Source: a virus
Length of the DNA: 64,000 nucleotides
Direction: 5' to 3' (one strand)
Virus record (IMG/VR): IMGVR_UViG_3300042455_001850
Coordinates: 1-64,000 of that record
Part shown: positions 12,533-60,973 of the stretch, one piece after another
Layout of the letters: the number at the start of each line of letters is the position of its first letter
How positions within the stretch are numbered: position 1 is the first letter of the stretch
Notes under the pieces: generated by a model
The model's database searches: none
The model's input: the letters and a program-made list of their open reading frames with translations, nothing else
Told to the model about the DNA's origin: nothing
Translations under genes and position numbers: made by a program

Positions 12533-15325
12533 ATGGCATCAGACAAAATATTTGTATCACCAGGTGTATTTACATCAGAAAAAGATTTAAGTTTCGTAGC
12601 GCAACAAGTAGGTGTTACAACTTTGGGTGTTGTTGGTGAAACGACTAAAGGACCAGCTTTTGAACCAATCTTCATTACAAACTATGAAGAGTTCTTAGCT
12701 ATTTTCGGTGGTCTAAACTCTAAGAAATTTGGGGGAGAAGATAAAAAACCAATGTATGAATTACCTTACATTGCTAAAAGTTATCTACAACAATCAAACC
12801 AAATGTTTGTTACAAGAATTCTTGGTTTAACTGGTTATGACGCAGGAGCGGCTTGGTTAATTACAGCAAGTGCTAACTACGACCCAACAACAATTGTATC
12901 GGTAACAACTACAGGGTGGACAGCATCTTTTACAGGAAACACTTTTGGTTCAATTTCTAACGCTAACGTACAAGCGTTATACAATTTAGGATTGTTCCCT
13001 AACGGACCAACATTAACAACAACAGAACCAATACCAAATGATATAGCAACTTACCCTGAAGGTATTGTATTCACAAAAACAGGTCTTTCTTTTATAGGGA
13101 CATCAGCAAATATAACCCAAACTAGTTATATATCTAGTGCGAATACTGGTTCTGTTTCTGGTACAGTTACAACTTATTCAGCATCTTCTTATTCTGAATA
13201 TGAAGGTATGGCATTAGCAATGTTACGTTCTAGAGGTGATTATGGTGATGTAAATACAGTAACCGATACACTTACATTTAGAACTTTACAAACTTCAAAT
13301 GGTGTGGTTATGAACCCACTTACAACAGCTACTAACGCGGAAGCTAACTTTGTTCTTTCAGCTACAAACGCCACAACAAGTGCAGTAACTGCTTACGAAG
13401 TTTCTTTAAACACATCCTCAAGAGATTATATGCCAAGAGTACTTGGTACTGATTGTTTTGATAGAGACCCTTATATTTTTGTTGAGGAAATTTATCCAAA
13501 CAAATTAGCTGATTTAGTTTCAGCTGGATATATCTTAGGATTAAATTCTACCGTAACATACACAAACGATTTTAACAATTATAAACAACAATGGCAAACT
13601 CCTGAAACTCCTTGGGTTGTTTCTGAATTACGTGGTAACCTTGTTGAAAAATTATTCAAATTTATTTCTATCTCTGACGGTAGTTCGGGTAACAAAGAGA
13701 TTAAAATCTCAATAGCTAACATCAAACCTGATACAAAACAATTTGATATCCTTGTTAGAGAATTTTATGACAACGATACAAGACCAACAATTATTGAGTC
13801 TTTCCGTAAAGTTGTTATGAATCCTGCTGATGATAACTATATTGCTAGAAGAATAGGTACCGCTGACGGTGAATTCTCTTTAAAGAGTAGATACATTATG
13901 ATGGTTATGAACGCTGAAGCACCAATTGACTCATTCGCAGCGGGTTATGAAGGTTATGTTGTTAGAGATTATCCTGTAGGTGTATTAGCACCACAATTAA
14001 ACTACAAAACACAATACGATATTGTTAATGATACAATTAGAAAAGTTTACTTAGGTATTTCTGATACAGTTGGTATTGACCAAAACATGTTTAATTGGAA
14101 AGGTTATACTAATGACGCATCACCTAATCAATGGACAGCTACAACAAAAGGTTTCCACATGGATAGTGGAGCTACAGTAGCAGGTACTTTTGAAGTAGGA
14201 TGTTGTCCGTTTAGAACAATCGCTGGTATTGAAGGTACTTCTTATCAGTCTATTCAAGCTAGAAAATTCACATTCGCACCTTATTTAGGATTTGACGGAT
14301 GGAACTGTTATAGAAATACAAGAACAAATACTGATAGATATAGAGTTGGTAGAGCTGGTTTTGACGCAGGTTTACTTAACGGTGAATTTGAAAACATTAC
14401 CGCTACTCAAGGTACTTCTGATTACTACGCATACCAAGAAGGTATCTACACATTTAGAAATCCTGAAGCAGTAAACATTAACGTATTAGCAACACCTGGT
14501 ATTGATTACTCAGAAAATAATTCATTGGTTGGTTTAACAATTGACATGGTTGAAGAAGAAAGAGCTGATTCAGTTTATATCTTAACTTCTCCTGAAGGTG
14601 TTACTTACAACAATGTTGTTCAATTAACTAGTATTGGGTTCGCAACAATTAGTAATTATACAGCTGATGACATGGTAGGTTTACTTGAAGCAGCAGATAT
14701 TGACTCTAACTACACAGCCACTTATTGGCCATGGATTCAATCAAAAGATACTGAAAATAATGTTAACGTTTGGTTACCACCTACATATGAAGTAGTACGT
14801 AACATCGCTTTAACTGATAACGTATCATTCCCTTGGTTCGCTTCAGCTGGTTACACAAGGGGTCTTACTTCAGCTATTCAAGCTAGAGTTAAATTGACTG
14901 AAGCTGATAGAGATACTTTATATGAAGGAAGAATTAACCCAATGGCTACATTCTCTGACCAAGGAGTTGTAATTTGGGGTAACAAAAACTTACAAATAGC
15001 TGATTCAGCTCTTGATAGATTGAACATCAGAAGATTGTTACTACAAACAAGAAAGTTGATTTCAGCAGTAGCAGTAAGATTGTTGTTCGAACAAAACGAC
15101 CAAATCGTAAGAAATCAATTCTTATCACTTGTTAACCCAATCTTGGAAAACATTAAGAGAGAAAGAGGTTTGGCTGACTTTAGAGTTCAATTATCAAGTG
15201 ACCCTGAAGAAATTGACAGAAATGAATTAAGAGGTAAAATCTTTTTAAAACCTGTACCAGCTTTAGAATTCATAATCTTAGAGTTCAACGTAACTTCAAC
15301 AGGAGCGTCATTCGACAATCTATAA
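12533..15325 (+). CDS. Tail sheath protein (T4 gp18-like)
   Basis: A 930-residue contractile tail sheath. The N-terminus (FVSPGVFTSEKDLSFVAQQV, then LGVVGETTKGPAFEPIFI) is the typical sheath start. The C-terminus has the conserved RLNIRRLLLQTRKLISAVAV helix, an FLSLVNPILENIKRERGL segment and a final beta strand KIFLKPVPALEFIILEF, which forms inter-subunit contacts in known sheaths. Length is greater than T4 gp18 (659 aa), due to an insertion in the middle, probably surface-exposed domains. Codon use is G+C-richer and more regular than neighbours, as expected for a highly expressed protein. It is followed by a strong terminator, so it seems to be a single-gene unit. Confidence 0.97.
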   Translation: MASDKIFVSPGVFTSEKDLSFVAQQVGVTTLGVVGETTKGPAFEPIFITNYEEFLAIFGGLNSKKFGGEDKKPMYELPYIAKSYLQQSNQMFVTRILGLTGYDAGAAWLITASANYDPTTIVSVTTTGWTASFTGNTFGSISNANVQALYNLGLFPNGPTLTTTEPIPNDIATYPEGIVFTKTGLSFIGTSANITQTSYISSANTGSVSGTVTTYSASSYSEYEGMALAMLRSRGDYGDVNTVTDTLTFRTLQTSNGVVMNPLTTATNAEANFVLSATNATTSAVTAYEVSLNTSSRDYMPRVLGTDCFDRDPYIFVEEIYPNKLADLVSAGYILGLNSTVTYTNDFNNYKQQWQTPETPWVVSELRGNLVEKLFKFISISDGSSGNKEIKISIANIKPDTKQFDILVREFYDNDTRPTIIESFRKVVMNPADDNYIARRIGTADGEFSLKSRYIMMVMNAEAPIDSFAAGYEGYVVRDYPVGVLAPQLNYKTQYDIVNDTIRKVYLGISDTVGIDQNMFNWKGYTNDASPNQWTATTKGFHMDSGATVAGTFEVGCCPFRTIAGIEGTSYQSIQARKFTFAPYLGFDGWNCYRNTRTNTDRYRVGRAGFDAGLLNGEFENITATQGTSDYYAYQEGIYTFRNPEAVNINVLATPGIDYSENNSLVGLTIDMVEEERADSVYILTSPEGVTYNNVVQLTSIGFATISNYTADDMVGLLEAADIDSNYTATYWPWIQSKDTENNVNVWLPPTYEVVRNIALTDNVSFPWFASAGYTRGLTSAIQARVKLTEADRDTLYEGRINPMATFSDQGVVIWGNKNLQIADSALDRLNIRRLLLQTRKLISAVAVRLLFEQNDQIVRNQFLSLVNPILENIKRERGLADFRVQLSSDPEEIDRNELRGKIFLKPVPALEFIILEFNVTSTGASFDNL

Positions 15326-34443: not shown

Positions 34444-34758
34444 ATGGCAATATACTACGATAGATATAGAGATTTCAGGAAAGACGGTATGGTAACAACC
34501 TTACCGTTTATAAAAATACCTGTAAAACCATCAGACAAAAGAATTGTTACGGATAATAAAACAAGATTTGATAAAATAAGTCAAACTTATTATGGGAATC
34601 CCTTCCATGGTTGGTTGATATTACAAGCTAATCCAGAATTCGGTGGTTTAGAGTTTGACATTCCTGAAAATACAGTTATAATAGTACCATTTCCTTTAAA
34701 CAAATCATTAGAGGAATACCAATCTCAAGTAGAGAGATATAAAAGATTATACGGATAA
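34444..34758 (+). CDS. LysM-like / gp53-type baseplate protein
   Basis: A 104-residue protein. DKISQTYYGNPFHGWLILQA and FDIPENTVIIVPFPL (about 43-82) follow the pattern of LysM-like domains in tail proteins (lambda X-type and gp53-like), where the family glues hub and wedge parts. The N-terminus MAIYYDRYRDFRKDG is like the start of several baseplate wedge proteins. It lies 11 nt after one giant baseplate gene and 14 nt before another. Identification as baseplate protein is firm by context, the exact T4 counterpart is not. Confidence 0.75.
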   Translation: MAIYYDRYRDFRKDGMVTTLPFIKIPVKPSDKRIVTDNKTRFDKISQTYYGNPFHGWLILQANPEFGGLEFDIPENTVIIVPFPLNKSLEEYQSQVERYKRLYG

Positions 34759-34772
34759 ATAATAAGTTTTTT

Positions 34773-37700
34773 ATGGCACTTAATCAAGGACCACAACCAA
34801 AAGTTCAAGATATGGGTAACGGAATTAGATACGTTGACCCAAACCCAACAGATGAAATAGTTAATCACGAAGACTTGGTGATGTATGTAAAACTAGTTGC
34901 TAGGTCTAAAGGTAGAAGTATCTTAACATTTGATGACGCTAATGACCAAGTTACTAATATTGTAGAACAAAGAAATGTAAAATCAGAAACTAACTTCACA
35001 TACCCAACAGGTAAAGATAGTATTGATACTAGTTGGACTAACATTGGGGGTGGTAACTTAAACTTTGGTGAAGATTTAGGTTCATTTGGTATCACAAATA
35101 TTAATATAGAATTTAAATCTAGTTTCATGCCACAAATTGTAATTGATTTTGTGGATGTTCGTGGAGCAGCTTTATTTGAACAAGGACCCTGTTCACCTTA
35201 CGCAGTCTTTTTTCACTTACCTTACCCTGTTTTTGAATTAACAGTAAAAGGATATTATGGTAGACCAGTTACATACACATTAGCTTTAACTAAATTTAAT
35301 ACAAAATTTAATTCGGACACAGGTAACTTTGAATCGAAAGCAGAATTTGTGGGTTATACTTATGCATTCTTAGCGGATATCCCTATGGGATATGTTATGG
35401 CAGCTGGATTTATGGAAAAACCACATAATGGTAAAGATATTTTGGCTGAAAAATGGAAATTATTAATGGATAAAAAAGTTTTGGTTAATAATGTAGAAAC
35501 ACCATTAATAGACCAAACGTCATTCACTGATGCTACAAAACCTATAAACGTTTATGATTTAATTAAATCCTCTAAAAAACTAGAATCAAGAACAAGTGAA
35601 TTAAAAAATTCTACACAAGTAACCAATTTAGGTAAAATTAATAAAACCAAAAATGAGTTAAAGGGGTTACGAGAATCAGTTTTAGAATTTAGACAAAAAT
35701 TTTTAGAAAAAATAGCTAATTCCCCCAATGGTGGGTATAGAATTAGTCCCAATACTACAAACCAAAAAAACACATTATATTTAAAATTACCCAACGTTAG
35801 TGCATCAGATGATAATCCAGTATTAGTTGAACTTAAAAAAGTAGTTGAAACTTATTTTGGTACAGGGGAAAACTCTCAATTAGGTGGTACTATAGGTGCA
35901 AAATATAATTCCGTAAATAGTTATTACACAAATAATGCTATTGATGGACCACCAATACTTTCTTGGGATACAATTAAAACTAATGCTTCTGGATTTTTCG
36001 GTACACCAATAAATATAGTTGATGGTTTAAGAGATTATTATATTGATATATATGAAAGTTTATTAAAACCTATTGATGTTGCTAGTGTAGAACTTAATAA
36101 AAAATATATAATTGAAAAAGATAATACTAAAAATTTCTTAAACAAAGAAGTTGTGACCACGTTAGGTTTTTTACCTACAATTAGTAATGTTTTTGCTATA
36201 ATTCTAACAAACGTTGAGGTATTTCTAGAATTACTATTAAGAACTTCTCGTGACGCAGAAAAATATCACCAAGAAAATAATGTGAATATTGGCCTAGATA
36301 AAACTGGGCTCCAACAAATTTTAGATTTAAAAGGTACCCAAAATAATGGTGCTGAATTATCTGATGAAGAGAACGATAAACAAAAAAACAAAGTATATCC
36401 TTGGCCAACATATTATGAAAAGAAACAAGGTTCTGATAGTGAAGTTGGGGATAAAGAAACATACCCAGGGGAAAATCCCGAATTTGTTAGTTGGCCTGAA
36501 GTAATATTTGTTGAATCGTTTATTAAAGCTTTAACAAAATTAAAAGGTGAATTAGCTGTTTTAGAATTACAATTAGAAAATTTACCTGGTTATGATAATT
36601 TTGCCCCAATCACACCCTACGAAACTCACGCATTTGGTGTAGTAGAATCACCAAATAGATGGTTAAAAATACAAAACGGTAGTAGTGACCAAGCTTCTTG
36701 GGCTGATTCAATCTATAAAGTAATGGGTGAAAATGCTTTTATTATTGGTGACTACACTATGATTAATAGTTTAAGTGTTTGGAAATCACAATTAGGTTTT
36801 AAAAATGGTTGGGGTGTAGAAACATTAACTAATGGTAATGGGGCTAGTAATGGATATTCTAACACTGGTAATAAGTATTCTATTAAACCACAAAGATTAG
36901 CAGAAAACCCAAAAGTATTACAAAATATTGCTGCAAATAACCAATTAGGTAGATATGGTGGTGAAGGATTTACCTACGGTTCACAAGGGAAAGATACAGA
37001 TTCTTTTAAAAGAAAAATAGTTCCCGCTACCACAAAAAGAATGAAAGATTGGGGTTATGTTGATGCTTTAAATTTGATGACAACCCTTAAATTAGATGGC
37101 GGGGTAAATACGACCCTAGAATGGTTACAAAATGATATTACAACAGCAAAGAAAGATTTTATTATAACAGAAATAAAAAGAGTTTTAACCAATAAACTTA
37201 AAACACAAAAATTTGATGAGTGGAAAGTTTCGGCTACCGCGGCTATTGGTGGTACACCAGCTCTTGTAGATAAACAATCACAAATATGGAATAGCTATTT
37301 CCAATACGTTACAGCTAAAAATGTATTAACACTAACAGGCCCAATTTATTTAAATGATAGGGTTGATAGTGCTAAAGATATAAAAATATCAGCAAACCCA
37401 CATAATAATGACGGAAGTGGAGCTGTTTTAGTAAAAGACACTGATTTAACAGCAAGAGAAATAGATTTTAGTAGTGATTCATTAATAGAAGAAATTAAAA
37501 ATGGTTATAAAAAATATTATGCTAGTACTGAAGAAACTGATAGTGGTATAGCCGAAAATCTTTTAGAAGTTGGTTCTTTAGCGTATAGATTATTAAAATT
37601 CAGGCCAAAAACACCTAGGGACAAACCAACTACCGCTTATGATACAAAAAAAGTGATAGAGACAGAGGCTGACATAAATTTAAGTAGAGATAAAAATACA

Positions 37701-39950
37701 AATATGCTTACTTTAGGTGATTATTTTGCACCTAATTTTTATCATACATATGAAAACCTAAAAGACCTACCACAAGAGGGACCAATATTAGATTTAAGTT
37801 CATCGAGAACAATTTATGACAGTTATTCTCCAAAATATATATTTTGGTCTAATTTTATGGGTGCCTCAAATACTAATACTTCTGTTGGTTCCGCGGATTC
37901 AATAATAAACACACCACTATGGTTACTTAATTATCCTTTATGGAAAAATTCTTGGCAATACGCTGAGTCTGGTGGTGATAACGGTACCGTGGCTCTTGAT
38001 GAAGTAGTTTCAATAGTGGCTGGTAAAACTTCTGGTGAATTTGCTACTTACCTTGGAGAAGATATTGGTACATACCCATCTTACCATAATAAAGCTGATT
38101 CAAACCAAAGAAGAAATTGGTCTACTTGGTGGGGATTAAATCAGTGGGGTGTAGATAATACTAATAATATATACAAACCATTGGCTTATATGGCGGTAAT
38201 GTCATTTGGTTTTGATAATTTAAAATCTGAATTTAGAACAGGACATTTTCCACCTTGGGATGGCAATAGTGATACAGATTTATCATCATTTTCTAATTTC
38301 ACAACTTCAGCTATTATGGCATATCCACCTAAAGCTTATATATTATTAATTGGAGCCATTTTATGGAGAATGAAAGAAACTAATTTATTATTATGGGACG
38401 AAATAAAACCTACAAAAGACCCTTTTCCTTATGACGCTAGTATAAATTCAGGGTGGAATAGATTAAATAAATCATACCTTTCTGACAATTCAAATATAGG
38501 TATAGATGACATAAACGACCCTGTATGGTTTTTCCATACATCTACGTCTAGACCTTGGTTTAAAGGTGGTTCTGTATACGCAATAAAACCAGAACAAAAT
38601 GCTTTATCTTTTGGTGGTACAAATTCTAGTTATCAAAGAAGATGGTTAGGTGCCCAAGGGGGTGTAGATAGATGGACCAATGGTGGAGCATCCATAAGTA
38701 AAAATTTTGGAACTCAAAAACCAGTAATTATCGGACCTAATAACAGTATTAATTTTCCTCCTGGTTTATCTGCTTCTGATTTTAACTTTACAAATTCATT
38801 ATATCGAGCCGGATGGACTAAATCAAGTTCTATTTTTGGTAAAAATGATGATAAAGTCCCTAGTAATGGTATATTTAGAAGTGCTGTAGGTAATATTACC
38901 AAAGGATGGTTTGACCAATGTAGACCCGACCAAATGCCTTTTATTTTAAGTGATAGTGGTAGAGGTATTGATTTTACAAGTCCTAAAACATTGGTTATTA
39001 CTAATCTAAGTACTGAAACAAATAAGAATATCAATTACAGTGATAAGACACCTAATTTATTAAATAATAAATACCCTATTTTAAAAGAAGAATGTAAAGA
39101 ATTAATGTTTATACCAAAAAGTTTAAAAATACAATTTATTGATGCTTTTGAATCTTGGGCAACAGGTGAAAATGCTAGATGGTTATTAGGCTTAGACCCA
39201 TTAAATTGGAATGATAATGGTAGTTTAGATAATTGGTCAACAACAAGTGGTGGTTTTGATAATTCATATGTTTTAAATGGGTATAAAGGATTTTTAACTC
39301 AGACTGTTAGAAAAGATAGACAGTATTTAACATACACCAAAGAAGATAAGAAAAATTACTATACACAACGTTTTACTTTTCTTGATGAGGGTGAATTATC
39401 TGGCACAAAACCAAAACCAAAAAAACAAAAGAAAAGTAATAGTAATACTGATTACGAACCAGCATCACCTACTTATGATGTTTCATGTTTTGTGGCTGGT
39501 TCTAAAATTAAGTTAAGTAGTGGTAAAAATATTAATATTGAAGATTTAGTAGTTGGTGATATTGTATTAAGTTATAATGTAAATACAAATATTTTTGAAG
39601 AAAGTAGTATTGAAAACGTTACAATAAATTATAAAGATAATCTTGTAATTTACAATTTTGATAACGGAATTAAAATAACTTGTACCGATACCCACCCTAT
39701 TTGGGTTGTTGGTAAAGGTTGGTCTTCTTATAGACAAACTGATGTAAATGATTCTGAACATATAGGACCCACAAAACAAATTAGTAGTGGTGATGAATGT
39801 TTTTATTATTCTAACAATAAATTTAATAAAGTTAAAATTTCTAAAATAATTGAAAAACAAAATAAAATGGTTAGGGTTTGGAACGTTAAAAACGTTACTG
39901 GTAACCATAACTTCATCATAAATAATGTTTTAGTACATAACGTTACATAA
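34773..39950 (+). CDS. Giant baseplate protein with C-terminal Hint/BIL domain
   Basis: A 1725-residue protein. The N-terminal part (GIRYVDPNPTDEIVNHEDLV, FMPQIVIDFVDVRGAALFEQ, LPYPVFELTVKGYYGRPVTY) reads as a large baseplate/hub protein. Residues about 620-1550 are unrecognised, rich in Asn, Trp and Tyr. A basic and polar linker (KPKPKKQKKSNSN) leads to Cys1572, which starts a complete intein-like Hint domain that ends two residues before the stop. The C-terminus thus can be cleaved autocatalytically (known for BIL domains; not shown here). Its stop overlaps the start of the first hub paralogue (TAATG), so the genes are translationally coupled. Confidence 0.85.
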   Translation: MALNQGPQPKVQDMGNGIRYVDPNPTDEIVNHEDLVMYVKLVARSKGRSILTFDDANDQVTNIVEQRNVKSETNFTYPTGKDSIDTSWTNIGGGNLNFGEDLGSFGITNINIEFKSSFMPQIVIDFVDVRGAALFEQGPCSPYAVFFHLPYPVFELTVKGYYGRPVTYTLALTKFNTKFNSDTGNFESKAEFVGYTYAFLADIPMGYVMAAGFMEKPHNGKDILAEKWKLLMDKKVLVNNVETPLIDQTSFTDATKPINVYDLIKSSKKLESRTSELKNSTQVTNLGKINKTKNELKGLRESVLEFRQKFLEKIANSPNGGYRISPNTTNQKNTLYLKLPNVSASDDNPVLVELKKVVETYFGTGENSQLGGTIGAKYNSVNSYYTNNAIDGPPILSWDTIKTNASGFFGTPINIVDGLRDYYIDIYESLLKPIDVASVELNKKYIIEKDNTKNFLNKEVVTTLGFLPTISNVFAIILTNVEVFLELLLRTSRDAEKYHQENNVNIGLDKTGLQQILDLKGTQNNGAELSDEENDKQKNKVYPWPTYYEKKQGSDSEVGDKETYPGENPEFVSWPEVIFVESFIKALTKLKGELAVLELQLENLPGYDNFAPITPYETHAFGVVESPNRWLKIQNGSSDQASWADSIYKVMGENAFIIGDYTMINSLSVWKSQLGFKNGWGVETLTNGNGASNGYSNTGNKYSIKPQRLAENPKVLQNIAANNQLGRYGGEGFTYGSQGKDTDSFKRKIVPATTKRMKDWGYVDALNLMTTLKLDGGVNTTLEWLQNDITTAKKDFIITEIKRVLTNKLKTQKFDEWKVSATAAIGGTPALVDKQSQIWNSYFQYVTAKNVLTLTGPIYLNDRVDSAKDIKISANPHNNDGSGAVLVKDTDLTAREIDFSSDSLIEEIKNGYKKYYASTEETDSGIAENLLEVGSLAYRLLKFRPKTPRDKPTTAYDTKKVIETEADINLSRDKNTNMLTLGDYFAPNFYHTYENLKDLPQEGPILDLSSSRTIYDSYSPKYIFWSNFMGASNTNTSVGSADSIINTPLWLLNYPLWKNSWQYAESGGDNGTVALDEVVSIVAGKTSGEFATYLGEDIGTYPSYHNKADSNQRRNWSTWWGLNQWGVDNTNNIYKPLAYMAVMSFGFDNLKSEFRTGHFPPWDGNSDTDLSSFSNFTTSAIMAYPPKAYILLIGAILWRMKETNLLLWDEIKPTKDPFPYDASINSGWNRLNKSYLSDNSNIGIDDINDPVWFFHTSTSRPWFKGGSVYAIKPEQNALSFGGTNSSYQRRWLGAQGGVDRWTNGGASISKNFGTQKPVIIGPNNSINFPPGLSASDFNFTNSLYRAGWTKSSSIFGKNDDKVPSNGIFRSAVGNITKGWFDQCRPDQMPFILSDSGRGIDFTSPKTLVITNLSTETNKNINYSDKTPNLLNNKYPILKEECKELMFIPKSLKIQFIDAFESWATGENARWLLGLDPLNWNDNGSLDNWSTTSGGFDNSYVLNGYKGFLTQTVRKDRQYLTYTKEDKKNYYTQRFTFLDEGELSGTKPKPKKQKKSNSNTDYEPASPTYDVSCFVAGSKIKLSSGKNINIEDLVVGDIVLSYNVNTNIFEESSIENVTINYKDNLVIYNFDNGIKITCTDTHPIWVVGKGWSSYRQTDVNDSEHIGPTKQISSGDECFYYSNNKFNKVKISKIIEKQNKMVRVWNVKNVTGNHNFIINNVLVHNVT
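39486..39941 (+). other. Hint / bacterial intein-like domain (152 codons)
   Basis: Residues 1572-1723 of the baseplate protein. Block A: CFVAGSKIKLSSGKNINIED with the N-terminal Cys, then VVGDIVLSYN. Block B: ITCTDTHPIWVVGKGW, with the TxxH motif. Block F: RVWNVKNVTGNHNFII. Block G: NNVLVHN, ending in His-Asn. There is no endonuclease. The residue after Asn is Val, then Thr and stop, so normal splicing (needs Cys, Ser or Thr at +1) is not expected; N-terminal cleavage, Asn cyclisation or transfer of the acyl group to another nucleophile is possible. Confidence 0.85.
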
Positions 39951-41878
39951 TGAGTGATAACACAAGATTAGTAGGATTAAAAAAAGATAAAAACAAAGAA
40001 CTGTATGAAGAATTATTTGTAACTGATTCTAAATACCGTTTAATTTCTTCATCACCTAAAGTTTTTTCTGCCATACATCCTGATGATTTTAATGAAGAAT
40101 TTTATATATCTGAGGATGAATTAAGTTCATACGTCGACGGATTTATTCAAGCGGTGTCAGACAATTCCAAAAAAATTATTGAGTCAATTACACAAAATAC
40201 GGATAATAACGATAATATAGCTGATTCCGCTTTAAATGACACAGACCTAAAACTTTCTTTATATCGTTCATTTAAATCACTTTACGATAAATGGATTTCT
40301 TGTTCTGTAATTGGTTCAGATAGTACTTCGGGTAATACTTCAGGTTATTTCTATAATAACTATGGTAGTAGTAGTCCATCTGAAACAAGGATGTTATATG
40401 AACATTTTAGTTTTGTTAATAGAGGTAATGGTGATGTGGGTAAAAAAGCAGTTATAGATTTTTCATACCTTTCTAATTTAGCTAGTACCAAAAACGGACA
40501 AGGGCCAACACAATCCCTATACGAATCTATAACTAATTTATTAACAAAAAACAATTTTGAATTTTTTGCAATGCCAAACGTAATTGGGTATTCTACAGGG
40601 GGCAATGAAGTTCTTGAAAATATTTTTAGAGCTTTCGATAGTCCTATAGATAGAATACCCGCTAAACCTGGATTTGTGTGTATGTTTATTGGGGGTAATT
40701 CTAGGACATTAGATATACCAAAAACTTCATGTAGTAATAATGGTATTAATTTTGATTATGTAGACGATACCTTTGATATAGATAAACCCACTACATACCC
40801 AGAAGATTTTATTAAAAATGGTGGTATAACAGCTTTTAAAGTTAGATACGGACAACAAACCCAAAATCATTTTAAATCTTTAGAACTAGACCAATCCGAA
40901 TTTAAAGAAACTCAAGAATCACTTTTGGTAATTGATGCCTTAACAAATCCTAGTAGTGGCTCAGACCCAACACAAATTGGTAAGGGTAATAATATTTATG
41001 ATATGTATTTGACAAGAAACTATTCTTGTACTGTTAACACATTTGGTAACATGCAAATACAACCAATGATGGTCTTTAAATTAGAGAACGTCCCAATGTA
41101 TAAAGGAACTTATTTAATTACAAACGTCAGTCATTCCATAAAACCACACAATGTAGAAACAACATTTAAAGGTGTGAGACAACCAATAGTCACCGTACCT
41201 ATTGTAACAGAAGCTTTGAGTTTGATTGACCTAGCTCTAGCTGAAACACTACAAGGAGATGCTGCTTTAGGTAACACTGGTGGGGGAGGTGGAGGAACCA
41301 CAACTACAACTACAATATTACCAGCCAACCAAATATTCATAGACGATACTGTTTATGGAGATAGTTCAAATGAACAATGCCCTAAAATAGACGGTATAAC
41401 AGATGGTGGTGTTGGTGACGCTTATACCGGTGGTAAATTATTTAAAATTAGGTTATGTAAGGTAAAAGGTGCACTTATAAACGTCAAAATGGCGGAAAAT
41501 TTAAATAATATGGTTAATGCCGCACAAGCGGATGGTGTACCATTAACTTGTGGTAGTAACTTTAGAACAATGGAAGACCAAATAAATACGGCTAAAGCTA
41601 ATGGGTGTTATAAAACAGGTGTTTATGTAAAAGGTAATTGTGACCCTGATACTGCCACACCAGGGAGGTCAAGACACCAAAGTGGATTTGCAATAGATTT
41701 TGGTTGTAATGGGTCGACAATTTGTTATAAACACGATTCAGCTTGGTGTGCCGCAAATGGTGCTTCTAAAAAACCAAACGAATATGTTTGTTTTAATTGG
41801 TTGGTTAATAACGCCTCAAAATACGGATTTATTAATTACAACGGTGAGGCTTGGCACTGGTCAATAGATGGTACATAA
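39950..41878 (+). CDS. Hub/spike paralogue 1 with M15-type peptidase (VanY-like) cargo
   Basis: A 642-residue protein. Residues about 1-430 are shared with the next two genes (MSDNTRLVGLKKDKN, FIQAVSDNSKKIIESITQNT, NLASTKNGQGPTQSLYES, MQIQPMMVFKLENVPMYKGT). The last is like hub proteins of the gp27/gpD type. A Gly/Thr linker (about 443-455) leads to a C-terminal domain with GSNFRTMEDQ, SRHQSGFAIDF (zinc His and Asp, about 575-584) and EAWHWS near the end: the signature of M15 D-Ala-D-Ala carboxypeptidases/endopeptidases. It probably cuts peptidoglycan cross-bridges at infection. Confidence 0.85.
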   Translation: MSDNTRLVGLKKDKNKELYEELFVTDSKYRLISSSPKVFSAIHPDDFNEEFYISEDELSSYVDGFIQAVSDNSKKIIESITQNTDNNDNIADSALNDTDLKLSLYRSFKSLYDKWISCSVIGSDSTSGNTSGYFYNNYGSSSPSETRMLYEHFSFVNRGNGDVGKKAVIDFSYLSNLASTKNGQGPTQSLYESITNLLTKNNFEFFAMPNVIGYSTGGNEVLENIFRAFDSPIDRIPAKPGFVCMFIGGNSRTLDIPKTSCSNNGINFDYVDDTFDIDKPTTYPEDFIKNGGITAFKVRYGQQTQNHFKSLELDQSEFKETQESLLVIDALTNPSSGSDPTQIGKGNNIYDMYLTRNYSCTVNTFGNMQIQPMMVFKLENVPMYKGTYLITNVSHSIKPHNVETTFKGVRQPIVTVPIVTEALSLIDLALAETLQGDAALGNTGGGGGGTTTTTTILPANQIFIDDTVYGDSSNEQCPKIDGITDGGVGDAYTGGKLFKIRLCKVKGALINVKMAENLNNMVNAAQADGVPLTCGSNFRTMEDQINTAKANGCYKTGVYVKGNCDPDTATPGRSRHQSGFAIDFGCNGSTICYKHDSAWCAANGASKKPNEYVCFNWLVNNASKYGFINYNGEAWHWSIDGT

Positions 41879-41884
41879 AATATT

Positions 41885-41932
41885 ATGGGTGATAAAAAAA
41901 ATTAATAGGATTAAAAAAATAAGATAAAAATA
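41885..41932 (+). repeat. Degenerate copy of the paralogue 5' end
   Basis: ATGGGTGATAAAAAAAATTA at 41885 and the following GGATTAAAAAAA and GATAAAAAT segments align in order to the first 50 nt of paralogue 2 (41933-). It has an early stop (TAA after six codons), so it is a relic, lying directly before the intact copy. Confidence 0.75.
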
Positions 41933-43918
41933 ATGAGTGATAACACAAGATTAGTAGGATTAAAAAAAGATAAAAATGATGAACTGTACAAAGAATTATT
42001 TGTAACTGATTCTAAATACCGTTTAATTTCTTCATCACCTAAAGTTTTTAGTGCAATTCACCCTGAAGATTTTGGAGAAGATTTTTATATTTCAGAGGAT
42101 GAACTAGGTTCTTATATTGATGGATTTATTCAAGCGGTGACCGATAACTCTCAAAAAATCATTGATTCCATCACACAAAATACAGATAATAACGATAATA
42201 TAGCTGATTCTGCTTTAAATGACACAGACCTAAAACTTTCTTTATATCGCTCATTTAAATCTCTTTACGATAAATGGATTTCTAGTTCAGAATATAACCA
42301 ACAACAAACATCTAATTATTTTTATAATGCATATTCAGCAGAAAAAACTGACGAAAGAATGTTATACGAACATTTTAATTTTGTTAATAGATGTGGTACT
42401 GACATAGGTAAAAAGGCTGTTATAGATTTTGCTTACCTTTCTAATTTAGCTAGTACCAAAAATGGGCAAGGACCTACACAATCACTATACGAATCTATAA
42501 CTGGAGTTTTAAGTAAAAATAATTTTAATTTCTTACCATTACCTGGGTATATTAAATATTCAGACGCAAATACAAGTGAATTAGAAGATATGTTTAGAGC
42601 TTTTGATGGTCCACTAACTAAAATGAGAGCAAACCCTAAATTTGTGTGTATGTTTATTGGTGGTAGTTCTAGAAGTTTAGATATACCTAGGTCTTATTGT
42701 GGTACTAACGGAACTAATTTTGAATATAAAGATGATTCTTTTGACATATTTGACCCAACCACTTACCCCCAAGATTTTAATAACGATAAAACAAGTGGTA
42801 TTGTGGCTTTTAAAGTTAGATACGGACAAGAAACCCAAAACCACTTTATTAAAGTGGAGTTAGACCAAGCTGAGTTTAGGGAAACACAAGATTCACTTTT
42901 GGTAATTGACGCTTTGGTAAACCCAAGTAGTGGTTCGGACCCAACACAAATTGGTAAGGGTAATAATTTATATGATGTTAACTTAACTAGAGGTTACACT
43001 TGTAAGGTTGAGACTTTGGGTAACATGCAAATACAACCCACAATGTTTTTTAAATTAGAAAATATCCCAATGTTTAGAGGTACTTATCTAATTACAGATG
43101 TATCACACACAATCGTACCACATAACGCTAAAACAACTTTTACAGCAACAAGACAACCAATAATTACGGTACCAATTGTGACCGAAGCTTTGAGTATATT
43201 AGATTTATCTTTAGTTGAAACAGTACAAGGAGACACGAATTTAAATAACACTGGAGGTGGAGGAACCACAACAACCACAACAACTGATAATAATTATGAC
43301 GAATCTACAGTAACAACATTCAGTGGAATTGATGATTGTGTAACAACTTCTTTAAATAGTGTTAAAAATGATGGGTCCTTCCCAGTAATCATAAAAGGAT
43401 GTTATACGGCTAAAGATTTAGGTGGAGACGCCTTACACTCTTTTAATACTAGAAAAAGTGATAATTTTGGTGGTTATATGTTTACTGAATCAGCAGTACC
43501 AGCTAATTTTAGTAATAGAGTTAAAGTTGGTACACAGGGTGGAGTTTATGCTGGAAAAGGTGTTAACACTGTAATAAAAGAAATAAATAGTAAGGGTGTT
43601 AAAGTAAAAGTTTCAAAAATAGAAATTAATATAGATTGGACTAATTATTTTGTTAGTTGGGCAGTTACAATAGAAAAAAGTACTGACGAAAAATCTTACA
43701 TTGGAGTAGCTACTAGAGGTTCAATAGGTAGTATATCTTCTGGAAACTATTCAGACAGAGCAGATTCACAAATACCGACATTAAAAAGCCAAAACCCAGA
43801 ATACGCAAATTGGGTTTCACCAAAAATTATTTATAATAAAAATATAATGGCAACTGGTTATTTAGAAGACCCTAAAAAACAATTAAGACAATATTTTTTA
43901 GCTTATACAAAAGCTTAA
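41933..43918 (+). CDS. Hub/spike paralogue 2 with unknown cargo domain
   Basis: A 661-residue protein whose first about 430 residues match paralogue 1 (for example identical MSDNTRLVGLKKDKN, FVTDSKYRLISSSPKVFSA, NLASTKNGQGPTQSLYES). A Gly/Thr-rich linker lies at about 440-452. The C-terminal 210 residues differ from both other paralogues: DDCVTTSLNSVKNDGSFPV, FGGYMFTESAVPANFSNRVK and IEINIDWTNYFVSWAVTIEK. I do not recognise this domain; there are no obvious catalytic His/Asp/Glu clusters and the beta content suggests binding or a glycan-active fold. By analogy with the siblings it is a periplasm-delivered or surface-active cargo. Confidence 0.82.
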   Translation: MSDNTRLVGLKKDKNDELYKELFVTDSKYRLISSSPKVFSAIHPEDFGEDFYISEDELGSYIDGFIQAVTDNSQKIIDSITQNTDNNDNIADSALNDTDLKLSLYRSFKSLYDKWISSSEYNQQQTSNYFYNAYSAEKTDERMLYEHFNFVNRCGTDIGKKAVIDFAYLSNLASTKNGQGPTQSLYESITGVLSKNNFNFLPLPGYIKYSDANTSELEDMFRAFDGPLTKMRANPKFVCMFIGGSSRSLDIPRSYCGTNGTNFEYKDDSFDIFDPTTYPQDFNNDKTSGIVAFKVRYGQETQNHFIKVELDQAEFRETQDSLLVIDALVNPSSGSDPTQIGKGNNLYDVNLTRGYTCKVETLGNMQIQPTMFFKLENIPMFRGTYLITDVSHTIVPHNAKTTFTATRQPIITVPIVTEALSILDLSLVETVQGDTNLNNTGGGGTTTTTTTDNNYDESTVTTFSGIDDCVTTSLNSVKNDGSFPVIIKGCYTAKDLGGDALHSFNTRKSDNFGGYMFTESAVPANFSNRVKVGTQGGVYAGKGVNTVIKEINSKGVKVKVSKIEINIDWTNYFVSWAVTIEKSTDEKSYIGVATRGSIGSISSGNYSDRADSQIPTLKSQNPEYANWVSPKIIYNKNIMATGYLEDPKKQLRQYFLAYTKA

Positions 43919-43957
43919 TTATACTATCTGTTTTAGTTAAAAAAATAATAAAGTAAT

Positions 43958-46495
43958 ATGAGTGATAACACAAGATTAGTAGGATTAAAAAAAGATAAAA
44001 ACAAAGAACTGTATGAAGAATTATTTGTAACTGATTCTAAATATAGGCTCATATCTTCTTCACCTAAAGTTTTTTCTGCTATTCACCCCGAAGATTTTGG
44101 TGAAGATTTTTATATATCTGAGGATGAATTAAGTTCTTATGTTGATGGGTTTATTCAAGCGGTGACAGACAATTCCAAAAAAATTATTGAATCAATTACA
44201 CAAAATACAAATAATAACTCTATTGAGGATAACATGTCAAGTGACCCAGATGTTAAACTTTCATTATATCGTTCATTTAAATCATTTTATGATAAATGGG
44301 TATCTAATTCTTATGATAGTGTAAATAAATCTTCTGGTTATTTCTTTAATAATTACGGTGAAGAAGATGATAGAATGTTATATGAACATTTTAAATTTAT
44401 TAATAGAGCAAATCAAGACGTGGGTAAAAAAGCAGTTATAGACTTTTCATACCTTTCTAATTTAGCTAGTACCAAAAACGGACAAGGGCCAACACAATCA
44501 CTATATGAGTCATTGACAAGTTTATTAAGTAAAAACAATTTTGATTTTTGGCCATTACCAGCAAACATTGATTTATCAACAGTATCATTAACAAATGAAC
44601 AAGTAAAAGATATTTTTAGACCATTAACATTTATAGATAAGGTACATCCAGGACCATCATTTGTTTGTGTTCATATTGGGGGTAGTTCTAGGTCTCTAGC
44701 TGATTTAAAAGACAATAGTAATACTTGTAGTGTTAATGGTGGTAATTTTGAATATGTTGATGACTCTTTTGATATTACAAATACAGTAGATTTACCGGTT
44801 GAATACACTAAAGAAGGTGAGGGTTTAGTTGTTTTTAAAGTTAGATATGGGCAAGAAGCACAAAATCATTTTAACTCAATAGAGTTAGACCAAACAGAAT
44901 TTAAAGAAACACAAGAATCTTTACAAATAATAGATGCCTTAACAAATCCTAATAGTGGCTCAAACCCATCACAAATTGGTAAAGGTAATAACATGTATGA
45001 TGTTTATTTAACAAGGGCTTATAATTGTACGGTTTCAGGTTTGGGTAATATGTCAATACAACCTTTAATGTATTTTAAATTAGAAAACGTACCAATGTTT
45101 AGAGGTACTTATCTAATTAATGCCGTTAGCCATACAATAACAAATAATAAAATTACTACTGAATTTACTGGTATGAGACAACCCAAAGTAACCGTACCTG
45201 TTGTAACTGAAGCTTTGAGTTTAATTGATTTAGCTTTAGTTGAAGTAGTACAAACTGATACAACTACCACTAATACTAATGGTAATGGAAGTACTACTGA
45301 TAGTGGTGATTATAGTGGTGGTGATATTTCAGTATTTAATAGTGTTGATACAAACGCTAAAGGTTGTGAGATTATAGGAAGACTTAAGGGTGATTTGGGT
45401 ATAACTGATGCACAGGCCGCTGGTATTATTGGTAATTTAATTGCTGAATCAGGTTTAATACCTGATAGAATACAAGATAGAAAAGGGAGAAAACCAAGGG
45501 GACTTATAACAGAATCTGGTGGATGGAATGGAACTACATTTTCTAAAGGTGGGGAAGATGAAGAAGGTTATGGTTGGGCACAATGGACTTTCTATACATT
45601 AAAAAATGATTTTATAGAATATGCAAGTACTAAAGGTTTTGATTTAAAAACAAAACCAGCAACAGATGAAATTAATTATGGTTATTTAATATATTGGTTA
45701 ACTGTATCAGAAGGTGGTAAAAAATTTGAAAAATTTAAAAGTGAAGATACAGTTTATAAAGCAGCAAAATATGTTGCTCAAAAATGGGAAAGATGTGAAT
45801 TTTGTCAAACAGAGGCTGAATGGAAAAAAAGAAGTGCTTTTGCACAAAACGTGTTTGATAGTTGTGGTAAAACACCAACTGGTGGGGGTGGTACAGGAAA
45901 ACCACCAGAACCAAAAAATTGTAGTAGTTCTGTTAAATTTGGTCTTAATGGTGGTGGTACTTTAGCTAACGCTAAAAACGCTATTGTTGGTTCTTCAAGT
46001 GTTGGGACCCTTAATGGTATGAGTAAATCTAGTACTTACGGTAACTTAACTAGTAATAATATATACGTATACTATAACTGTGGTGGTAAAACACTCTCTT
46101 GGTTAAAACAACAAATTAATGGAGACGGTAATGTTTACACAAGTGTAGAATCATTCTTCCAAGTAGGTATTGGTACTAATGACGGGTATCCAACAAAGGA
46201 TAGTACCAAGAAAGATATTAAAGCATATACTGATTTGGTTAGAAAAAAATTCCCTAACGCTACATTATATATTTTACCTGGTACTCGTGGTTGGGGAAGT
46301 GTTTCTAATACTACACTTAGTCAAATGAAATCTTATTATAAACAATATACAGATTTAGGTTGGACTTTATTGTGGCCTTTAAATAGTTCTAGTAATGAAA
46401 TAGACCCTTATTTTGACACACAAACAAAAGCTCACAACAGTAATGATGAATGGTTTAAAAAACAAATGAAAAGAATCAAAGATAATAAGAGTTAA
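43958..46495 (+). CDS. Hub/spike paralogue 3 with tail lysozyme and SGNH-hydrolase cargo
   Basis: An 845-residue protein. Residues 1 to about 430 are the shared hub domain, with more divergence than between paralogues 1 and 2. After a Thr/Asn/Gly linker the next domain (about 460-640) has AAGIIGNLIAESGLIPDRIQ (predicted catalytic Glu) and GYGWAQWTFY, the pattern of phage tail lysozymes (Phage_lysozyme2 type). A second linker GGGGTGKPPEP leads to a third domain (about 650-845) with IVGSSSVGTL (Ser nucleophile block), QVGIGTNDGYPT (GxND block) and YILPGTRGWG, typical of SGNH/GDSL esterases. It could cut glycan strands and remove acetyl groups from wall or capsule polymers. Confidence 0.83.
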   Translation: MSDNTRLVGLKKDKNKELYEELFVTDSKYRLISSSPKVFSAIHPEDFGEDFYISEDELSSYVDGFIQAVTDNSKKIIESITQNTNNNSIEDNMSSDPDVKLSLYRSFKSFYDKWVSNSYDSVNKSSGYFFNNYGEEDDRMLYEHFKFINRANQDVGKKAVIDFSYLSNLASTKNGQGPTQSLYESLTSLLSKNNFDFWPLPANIDLSTVSLTNEQVKDIFRPLTFIDKVHPGPSFVCVHIGGSSRSLADLKDNSNTCSVNGGNFEYVDDSFDITNTVDLPVEYTKEGEGLVVFKVRYGQEAQNHFNSIELDQTEFKETQESLQIIDALTNPNSGSNPSQIGKGNNMYDVYLTRAYNCTVSGLGNMSIQPLMYFKLENVPMFRGTYLINAVSHTITNNKITTEFTGMRQPKVTVPVVTEALSLIDLALVEVVQTDTTTTNTNGNGSTTDSGDYSGGDISVFNSVDTNAKGCEIIGRLKGDLGITDAQAAGIIGNLIAESGLIPDRIQDRKGRKPRGLITESGGWNGTTFSKGGEDEEGYGWAQWTFYTLKNDFIEYASTKGFDLKTKPATDEINYGYLIYWLTVSEGGKKFEKFKSEDTVYKAAKYVAQKWERCEFCQTEAEWKKRSAFAQNVFDSCGKTPTGGGGTGKPPEPKNCSSSVKFGLNGGGTLANAKNAIVGSSSVGTLNGMSKSSTYGNLTSNNIYVYYNCGGKTLSWLKQQINGDGNVYTSVESFFQVGIGTNDGYPTKDSTKKDIKAYTDLVRKKFPNATLYILPGTRGWGSVSNTTLSQMKSYYKQYTDLGWTLLWPLNSSSNEIDPYFDTQTKAHNSNDEWFKKQMKRIKDNKS

Positions 46496-59987: not shown

Positions 59988-60973
59988 TGAGTACGTATAG
60001 ATATAAAATAAGATTAAATTACCCCACAATAACAGGTGGAACAGTAGAACCGATGGTCAACGTAGTTACGGGTACACAACAGTTTACTGATTATTTAACT
60101 ACTTATGCTATTAAACCTGGGCAATCTGGCAATCAATTACAAATACCTAAAAATATCGGTAAAAATTATTTTACCAAAAGTTCTTTTAGTAATTTAAAAA
60201 CAGCATTAATTGAAAATATTGGTGGATATTTTGATGTATCAGAGGGTGGTATTTTAATTTCTTCAGGTAATACAATAAACCCTGATTATAATTACAAAAA
60301 TATTAACATACCTATAAATGTTAAATTTGAGGTTGTAGATTATTCTGATGATATCGATAATTTTATTGAAAGAGAAAAGAAAAAAGCCATAAACCCAATT
60401 ATAGATGGAGAAAAAGTTAAATACATCCCTGAAAATTATAATACTGTAACTATAAATTTTAGATTTTATAATAAGGATAGTGGTATGTATGATACCCCTA
60501 ATTATATTACCGCTGGATTTGTACCACAAGATATTGGTGTTAAAAATAACTTTAAAAAAAGTTTTTTTAGGTTATATTTTTATGACAGTAATAATAATAA
60601 AAAACAAAATTTATTGTCATCAGAAGATATATCTGCTAATGGTAGTACAATGCCTTCGTTTAATTTAAATAAAATTTATTGGTTAATGTCCGACAACCCA
60701 ATTACAGGTACGGGTAATAAAAAAATTTATATGGAGGCTAGATTTTTTAACGCTAAAACAGGTAGAGTCCATAGATTTTTTAATGTACCAATTTATATTG
60801 CGTCACCAATAACTGTAAGTGATTTAGCTAATAACCAAACTTGGAAAACAAGCCAAATCACTATTTTAAACCCTACTACTAATAACGGTAATCGTTGGTT
60901 TAGGGTAGAACCAGGTATTGGTGCAAACACACAAAATACAATAACAATGACAGAATTTATATTAAGTACATAA
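59987..60973 (+). CDS. Probable baseplate protein (gp8-like position), 329 aa
   Basis: The frame also permits GTG at 59981, but ATG at 59987 overlaps the upstream stop as TAATG, as it does for the next gene, so I prefer it (329 residues). It starts MSTYRYKIRLNYPTITGGTV. Features are a beta-rich fold and segments such as NYNTVTINFRFYNKDSGMYD and KIYMEARFFNAKTGRVHRFF. It is of the size and place of T4 gp8 (334 aa) between wedge genes, though I cannot show homology. Confidence 0.72.
   Translation: MSTYRYKIRLNYPTITGGTVEPMVNVVTGTQQFTDYLTTYAIKPGQSGNQLQIPKNIGKNYFTKSSFSNLKTALIENIGGYFDVSEGGILISSGNTINPDYNYKNINIPINVKFEVVDYSDDIDNFIEREKKKAINPIIDGEKVKYIPENYNTVTINFRFYNKDSGMYDTPNYITAGFVPQDIGVKNNFKKSFFRLYFYDSNNNKKQNLLSSEDISANGSTMPSFNLNKIYWLMSDNPITGTGNKKIYMEARFFNAKTGRVHRFFNVPIYIASPITVSDLANNQTWKTSQITILNPTTNNGNRWFRVEPGIGANTQNTITMTEFILST

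Follow-up and report, generated by a model that had tools for sequence, protein, structure and literature searches.

A stretch of 64,000 nucleotides, positions 1 to 64,000 of the IMG/VR virus record IMGVR_UViG_3300042455_001850 (hereafter, the window), carries three tandem genes on the + strand that the original prediction had described as hub/spike paralogues with one shared N-terminal domain and three different lytic cargoes. The open reading frames (ORFs) lie at 39950-41878, 41933-43918 and 43958-46495 and encode proteins of 642, 661 and 845 amino acids (aa), named W1, W2 and W3 for window slots 1, 2 and 3. Our analysis suggests that a large contractile-tailed bacterial virus builds its tail tip from mixed plug-in parts. 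The features of the locus are the following (L064 is a related IMG/VR locus described below).

34444-34758, + strand: small baseplate gene 5' of the hub genes, with a weak match to a baseplate wedge family (phrog_7145, phrog_46)
34773-39950, + strand: putative hub first part, or scaffold (1725 aa); one-piece giant hubs have a homologous N-terminal region of ~1500 residues
39480-39947, + strand: Hint/intein-like domain, C-terminal residues 1570-1725 of the upstream protein, with the AXH profile over its cut-off
39950-41878, + strand: putative hub second half, slot 1, with a VanY/M15 cargo; its first codon shares bases with the stop codon of the upstream gene
40388-41191, + strand: slot 1 residues 147-414, matching the second half of hub proteins (AlphaFold2 model compared with the PDB by VIA-align)
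41477-41860, + strand: VanY/M15 D-Ala-D-Ala carboxypeptidase domain, W1 residues 510-637 (PF02557)
41885-41930, + strand: decayed remnant of a hub-copy start, between copies 1 and 2
41933-43918, + strand: putative hub second half, slot 2, with a cargo domain without assigned function
43379-43909, + strand: slot 2 cargo, with a homologue in the gene directly 3' of the L064 fused hub
43958-46495, + strand: putative hub second half, slot 3, with a tail lysozyme and a possible SGNH-like end
45377-45859, + strand: Phage_lysozyme2 (tail lysozyme) domain, W3 residues 474-634 (PF18013)
45890-46492, + strand: possible SGNH/GDSL hydrolase domain, weak (PF13472, motifs by eye)

The three proteins begin with the same 15 residues, MSDNTRLVGLKKDKN, and share their N-terminal ~430 residues. 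The alignment of this domain, which had been proposed as a check, gave identities of 74% for W1/W2, 71% for W1/W3 and 68% for W2/W3, so the claim of three tandem paralogues with a common N-terminal domain stands. At the DNA level, repeats of 300 nt with 77-88% identity were found among the copies. No fourth copy was detected in the window's own record (195,712 bases, searched at E 0.001). The stop of the upstream gene and the start of W1 are joined in a TAATG overlap. The spacer at 41885-41930 resembles the first ~44 bases of a hub gene (local score of 52, the best of 2000 shuffles reaching 37) and is the footprint of a lost or recombined hub copy; the same local-score comparison revealed no remnant of a copy start in the spacer between copies 2 and 3. 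An assembly artefact was ruled out, as the three-copy block recurs in the IMG/VR contigs L004-L006 and a different lineage, L008, also has three copies, whose shared domains are 69-72% identical to those of the window slot by slot.

The C-termini of the three proteins differ from one another, as had been predicted. W1 ends in a VanY domain (PF02557, E 2e-13, 50.7 bits against a cut-off of 25), and W3 carries a Phage_lysozyme2 domain (PF18013, E 2.4e-20, 73.6 bits against a cut-off of 28.2) followed by a further stretch. The earlier assignment of a tail lysozyme plus an SGNH hydrolase to W3 thus held for the lysozyme, but the match of the W3 end to PF13472 (Lipase_GDSL_2; E 0.045, 14.7 bits) lies far under the cut-off of 32.9 and is only a hint, together with GSSS and GTND, which we read by eye as presumable SGNH/GDSL motifs. 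The W2 cargo gave no significant family match in the profile searches and, by sequence, no PDB match worth noting. It follows that two of the three cargoes proposed as lytic are recognizable enzymes, but no profile or sequence search result supports lytic activity for the third.

To place the shared domain among known folds, the AlphaFold2 (AF2) model m39a6f25b1b47 of slot 1 was used, built from a 57-row alignment that included 46 distinct fused hub segments of at least 300 aa. Its mean predicted local distance difference test (pLDDT) score was 51, with residues 361-410 at 76-82; a full-length model of slot 2 (11 rows, pLDDT 34) was discarded. In the VIA-align comparison, rows 1-40 were all hub, spike, VgrG or tail-tip/baseplate entries, matched mostly from about residue 147, with Z up to 7.9, where the tool warns that Z below 8 may reflect a common arrangement. 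Chain D of entry 1k28, which we take to be T4 gp27, was covered over 137-376 (Z 7.7), and the hub spans were 127-325 for the R2 pyocin hub, 120-338 for Mu gp44, 123-352 for VgrG1 and 496-714 for phage A-1(L). Foldseek returned no match at E 0.001; nearly all of its top thirty rows were hub, spike, VgrG and other tail entries. Among the 57 alignment rows, 18 matched phrog_52 (tail protein) and five phrog_196 (baseplate hub) at E up to 0.1. The call is persuasive because the fold-match list is unanimous, and we consider with moderate confidence that the tandem proteins represent the second half of a gp27/VgrG-type hub. The original view of them as hub/spike paralogues is thereby upheld at that strength, given a low-confidence model, but the shared domain matches the second half of a hub only. 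The first hub beta-barrel was not matched in the tandem proteins, and profile searches of the upstream protein for it gave nothing; it would be expected in the upstream protein, which contains a candidate region.

The position of the genes also fits a hub, since the baseplate cluster has a small wedge-like gene ahead of them. The product of this gene (34444-34758) matched the baseplate wedge subunit family phrog_7145 at E 4.2e-4 and phrog_46 at E 0.024, and a small gene of ~105 aa is found at the corresponding place in the lineages L008 and L010. The PF05488 and PF04717 profiles matched no spike or PAAR gene in the window's record; little weight is put on this, as the terminase profile PF03237 likewise found no match there.

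The relatives of the locus were collected by a scan with the conserved core of the upstream protein, which gave 113 hits. An alignment of 32 rows covers a conserved core at aa 83-215 of this protein. The locus counts rest on the best 80 of these 113, and loci were called fused or split by iterated profile searches of 1498 ORFs from them. The upstream protein and the shared domain form one ORF in 66 of the 80 loci, are split in six and are cut or unresolved in eight. The single ORF continues into an additional C-terminal tail and, when complete, spans ~2000-2650 aa. The six split loci comprise four of the window's species (one cut within its first copy), L008 and L010. The window-like IMG/VR contigs L004-L006 are identical to the window in the compared parts, and L007 is cut. 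The further lineages are L008 with its near-twin L009 (three copies), L010 (two) and L011 (two); L035 shows one copy on a contig cut upstream. The copies were also counted in 48 records, namely those of 47 of the 66 fused loci and of L063, with the proviso that the records may be fragments. Each of the 47 fused records held a single hub second half, present in two of them as adjacent pieces of one frame. L063, which is probably split, held none, its contig ending ~120 bases past the upstream gene. Where downstream sequence is available, the split lineages, four in number, have three copies (window, L008) or two (L010, L011). We conclude that splitting accompanies copy number: two or three copies in the split lineages, one in each of the 47 fused records. 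As the split loci are few and mutually related, one or a few splitting events account for them.

Among the fused loci near the window (L064-L067), the upstream core is 72-76% identical to that of the window, and the shared domain 40-42% (three aligned). The single chain of L064 bears Phage_lysozyme2 and then VanY, the former 47% identical to the W3 cargo and the latter 41% identical to that of W1. The next gene (L064:17528-19054) carries a homologue of the W2 cargo (49% identity over 180 aa), so that all three domains of the window lie side by side in L064, two of them on one hub chain. It should be noted that L064 is not clearly the closest fused relative of the window. The W2 cargo (43379-43909) and L064:17528-19054 share what appears to be one unnamed domain. 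In L064, L065 and L067 the hub is followed by one further gene and then by a 188-aa gene that is also present in the window, L035 and L010. The genes directly 3' of the fused hubs of L065 (17565-19493) and L067 (16134-18131) look by eye like multi-domain cell-wall enzymes, and Pfam gave no match for them up to E 5.

When the shared domain, the W2 cargo, the 967-aa protein at 60973 and two stretches of the upstream protein were searched against the phage collection with tblastn, no match among cultured phages was found. The W3 cargo matched six records of the collection by its lysozyme part, and the sheath and UvsX of this virus do find some cultured-phage matches. The best named match of the tail sheath (12533-15325, 930 aa) is to Microcystis phage Mel-JY01, with 33% identity over 75%; among the matches listed, 18 of 20 cover the last third only. 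A single pattern scan of bacterial and archaeal genomes confirmed no relative.

The shared domain itself turned out to hold two histories. For the trees, window-identical contigs were counted once, and the two-part trees left out the rows of L009, whose third copy is one base from that of L008. Change-point fits placed the breaks in seven pairs of copies after residues 62-205, with identities of 91-98% before the break and 60-69% behind it; within a genome, the copies thus resemble one another closely in their first part. In a sliding comparison of the first ~130 residues between genomes, the same slots were no more alike than different slots; past this first part, genes of the same slot in different phages generally resembled one another more closely than copies within one genome did. 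The tree of residues 1-175 unites the copies by genome for L008, L010 and L011. The tree of residues 195-430 recovered clades of slot 3 (support 99/96), of slot 2 (97/97) and of slots 1 and 2 together of both three-copy phages (96/96). The tree of the whole shared domain is uninformative because these two parts conflict. In the approximately unbiased (AU) test, a slot 3 clade was rejected for the first part (p 9.6e-11), and for the second part a clade of W1-W3 (p 3.1e-44) and the pairs of L010 and of L011 (p 0.002 each) were rejected.

Within a genome, residues 1-100 of the copies show synonymous distances (dS) of 0.22-0.98 and nonsynonymous distances (dN) of 0.01-0.11, while the dN of the same slot between phages is 0.34-0.48. 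The copies are thus kept alike while drifting together, which is more than recent copying. Low dN in spite of silent divergence is what a need for every copy to fit the same, fast-changing partner would produce and, as the copies are held alike, our inference is that all of them dock onto a single shared partner, for which the upstream protein is the simplest candidate.

The homogenised 5' parts of the copies also fit another explanation, that the locus is a recombination store in which repeats let the phage swap enzyme ends and joint assembly is irrelevant. The decayed copy start between copies 1 and 2 and the changes of cargo between relatives point in the same direction, and such a store would be compatible with a hub of plug-in parts. 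However, slots 2 and 3 form supported clades across phages in residues 195-430, which means that whole copies are not freely shuffled, and as an explanation of the locus we regard the store as very unlikely.

A scan covered 54 cargo ends, of which 10 came from split loci and 44 from fused ones, and these ends vary among the relatives when the lineages of the window, L008, L010, L011 and L035 are compared. L008 has a VanY-type end (57% identical to that of W1), a lysozyme, and a lysozyme with an SGNH-like part, the third having been read from L009; L011 has Amidase_2 and a lysozyme. In L010, a cargo-less copy a is followed by a gene that stands free and resembles TIGR02594 below the cut-off (E 1.8e-9), and then by a copy with another end. 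This stretch (L010:5955-10333), with a hub copy without cargo, a free enzyme-like gene and a second hub copy, raises the possibility that cargo may be encoded apart. Slot 3 has kept the lysozyme in three of the five lineages.

Such loci invite the explanation that only one copy is the true hub and that the others serve elsewhere in the virion or as free lytic enzymes: some relatives have two copies, those of L010 and L035 include copies without cargo, and L010 has its enzyme-like gene standing free between two hub copies. But the hub part is constrained (dN/dS of 0.07-0.26 over residues 291-430 in five same-slot pairs), and the leading segment is identical in kind across the copies, so that we hold this explanation to be improbable.

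Starting from the split, the copies, the two enzyme cargoes, the shared start and the slot history of the core, the arrangement that we favour is a hub in which scaffold chains are filled by a mixed set of second halves; we judge its chances to be about even. The 1725-aa protein would provide the first part and the scaffold, and each tandem protein one version of the second half: a leading segment, mostly helical (residues ~1-146), would be followed by the gp27/VgrG-type second part of the hub (~147-414), a linker and the cargo. Three identical scaffold chains would present three equivalent docking places, on which the leading segments would dock. The tandem second halves would fill these places as a mixed set, with mixing and stoichiometry within one virion being part of the proposal, and one tail tip would deliver all three domains, the peptidase and the lysozyme among them, at once. 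In the one-piece relatives both parts are on one chain, and their trimeric hub is necessarily uniform. A heterotrimer with one of each copy, as the original prediction proposed, is plausible from the gene organization; the split scaffold, the leading segment alike in all copies, the slot-specific core and the two enzymes on the chain of L064 are consistent with it.

The same slot-specific cores would also follow from like-with-like contacts, that is, from alternative hubs in which each tail takes three identical second halves and three kinds of virion differ in their enzyme. Precedents for uniform hubs exist: gp15 of the Anabaena phage A-1(L) (PMC10966104) and the hubs of three mycobacteriophage siphophages (PMC13252515, a preprint) are described as trimers of a single protein, and mixing of VgrG1 with VgrG2 is denied for Serratia in PMC4924876. 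The retention of the lysozyme by slot 3 would fit as well. Nevertheless, the chain of L064 bears two of these enzymes, hence both on one tail, which favours joint delivery over three virion types, an argument that rests on one locus. Furthermore, the core still groups slots 2 and 3 as clades though the cargo of their members differs, and one leading segment is kept by all copies. Alternative hubs therefore appear unlikely to us, if less so than a single true hub with extras.

Several observations weigh against the mixed hub of plug-in parts. W1-W3 have no resolved grouping in the tree of residues 1-175, slot 1 as assigned forms no supported clade over residues 195-430, and only four columns separate slots 1 and 3 without exception; the slot history could be the plain descent of old duplicates. 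The two copies of L010 and L011 mean that one of each is not general, which weakens a strict heterotrimer. No fused cargo is found on the slot 3 copy of L035 or on copy a of L010. L065-L067 match none of the window's cargoes, L064 being one of four near fused loci. As to the hub itself, the model has the mean pLDDT and the Z values below the tool's warning level that were given above, no PDB chain was matched by sequence at a meaningful E-value, and the T4 gp27 sequence aligns where it should, though with a score that several of 1000 shuffles exceed (hhalign gave E 0.17). The placement of the first barrel in the upstream protein follows from the order of the parts only.

The upstream protein of the window ends in a Hint-type domain. 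The AXH profile matched it with 36.9 bits (cut-off 33), while Intein_splicing (28.7 bits, cut-off 35.8), Hint (24.2, cut-off 29.7) and TIGR01445 (20.1, cut-off 24.5) stayed under their cut-offs. The domain shows Cys1, TxxH and HN, which we take to be Hint/intein motifs, and then VT and the stop. AXH is also over its cut-off in L008 and Vint in L011; the upstream protein of L063 matches Hint-type profiles under the cut-offs only, and the Intein_splicing matches of the window, L008 and L063 all stay below the cut-off. No Hint domain was found in the upstream protein of L010, and none of the 66 fused hub ORFs matched, at E 1, a profile of the Hint-type domains of the window, L008, L011 and L063. 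By these profile matches, a Hint domain lies at the split point in four of the five split lineages (window, L008, L011 and L063, the last being probably split).

Examined as a splicing intein, the chain ends in HN-VT-stop and contains no C-extein with Cys, Ser or Thr at position +1; ordinary splicing of the window's domain is impossible because the C-extein is lacking. A -1 frameshift joining the upstream protein to W1 as a C-extein was rejected, since the frame is open only from behind a stop and offers no Cys, Ser or Thr nucleophile at +1. The Hint domain may trim itself from the scaffold. A further idea, which we consider a long shot, is that it passes the C-terminus of the scaffold as a thioester to the N-terminal Ser or Thr of the docked second half, re-welding the giant chain; ligation after assembly would then amount to a choice among three different ends, a part of the idea that is just as doubtful. 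The second halves start with Met-Ser or Met-Thr where the Hint domain is canonical or nearly so (window, L008 and, in L063, the cut ORF that follows the upstream gene) and with Met-Ala or Met-Gly where it is degenerate or missing (L011, L010), in a tiny sample of Hint states and second residues. Serine is a common second residue of proteins.

Phage tail hubs are usually regarded as uniform trimers. A split and duplicated second half, with a constant lead and a core that follows the slot, makes mixed hubs directly testable in a phage. If the plug-in arrangement is true, it would be a way for a phage to load several different enzymes onto one tail tip, and it would place Hint, a self-processing type of domain, at a baseplate junction. 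Our literature search, which drew partly on excerpts of papers, found no case of a Hint domain at such a junction. It also found no paper on a heterotrimeric or split phage hub, which is no proof of absence, and the combination of a hub split into scaffold and cargo half, tandem second halves and Hint at the cut was not met with in it.

The closest known arrangement is that of the one-piece giant hubs (66 IMG/VR loci, for example L064), which have both parts in identical order followed by a C-terminal tail. They differ from the window in being a single chain, with one copy in each of 47 records and no Hint match. The T4 lysozyme sits in gp5. The gp27-gp5 hub of T4 resembles the window through the fold match to 1k28 chain D (Z 7.7), whereas there is one gene 27 in the T4 stretch viewed and no sequence match above shuffles. 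The gene of Caulobacter phage Cr30 annotated as "baseplate hub subunit and tail lysozyme" has a lysozyme of the W3 type (38.5%, E 2e-10), but the match is confined to the lysozyme part, 28% of the W3-cargo query. Flavobacterium phage immuto (NC_055915) has gp033, a carboxypeptidase-annotated gene after a gene of ~100 codons near the end of the record; unlike the window, it is a single gene of 938 aa with no tandem copies annotated. As a hub relative immuto gp033 is suggestive only (hhalign E 0.016, and 0.12 with a deeper profile), and the comparisons of immuto and Mel-JY01 proteins with the hub were suggestive at best or gave nothing.

Hubs with several enzymes and hub paralogues with cargo are already known. 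The hub gp15 of phage A-1(L) is trimeric and, like the hub proposed here, bears several enzyme domains, and its baseplate-entry chain is among our fold matches; according to PMC10966104, however, it is one gene with all enzymes on one chain. In type VI secretion, mixing is disputed: PMC8668125 cites a heterotrimer of V. cholerae VgrG1-3 and traces the need for mixing to effectors in Aeromonas, whereas PMC4924876 concludes against it in Serratia, and the phage case bears on the same question. The VgrG sets are like the window in having several hub paralogues per machine, some with C-terminal cargo (PMC8668125). They are whole hubs, whereas the window has second halves on what would be a shared scaffold.

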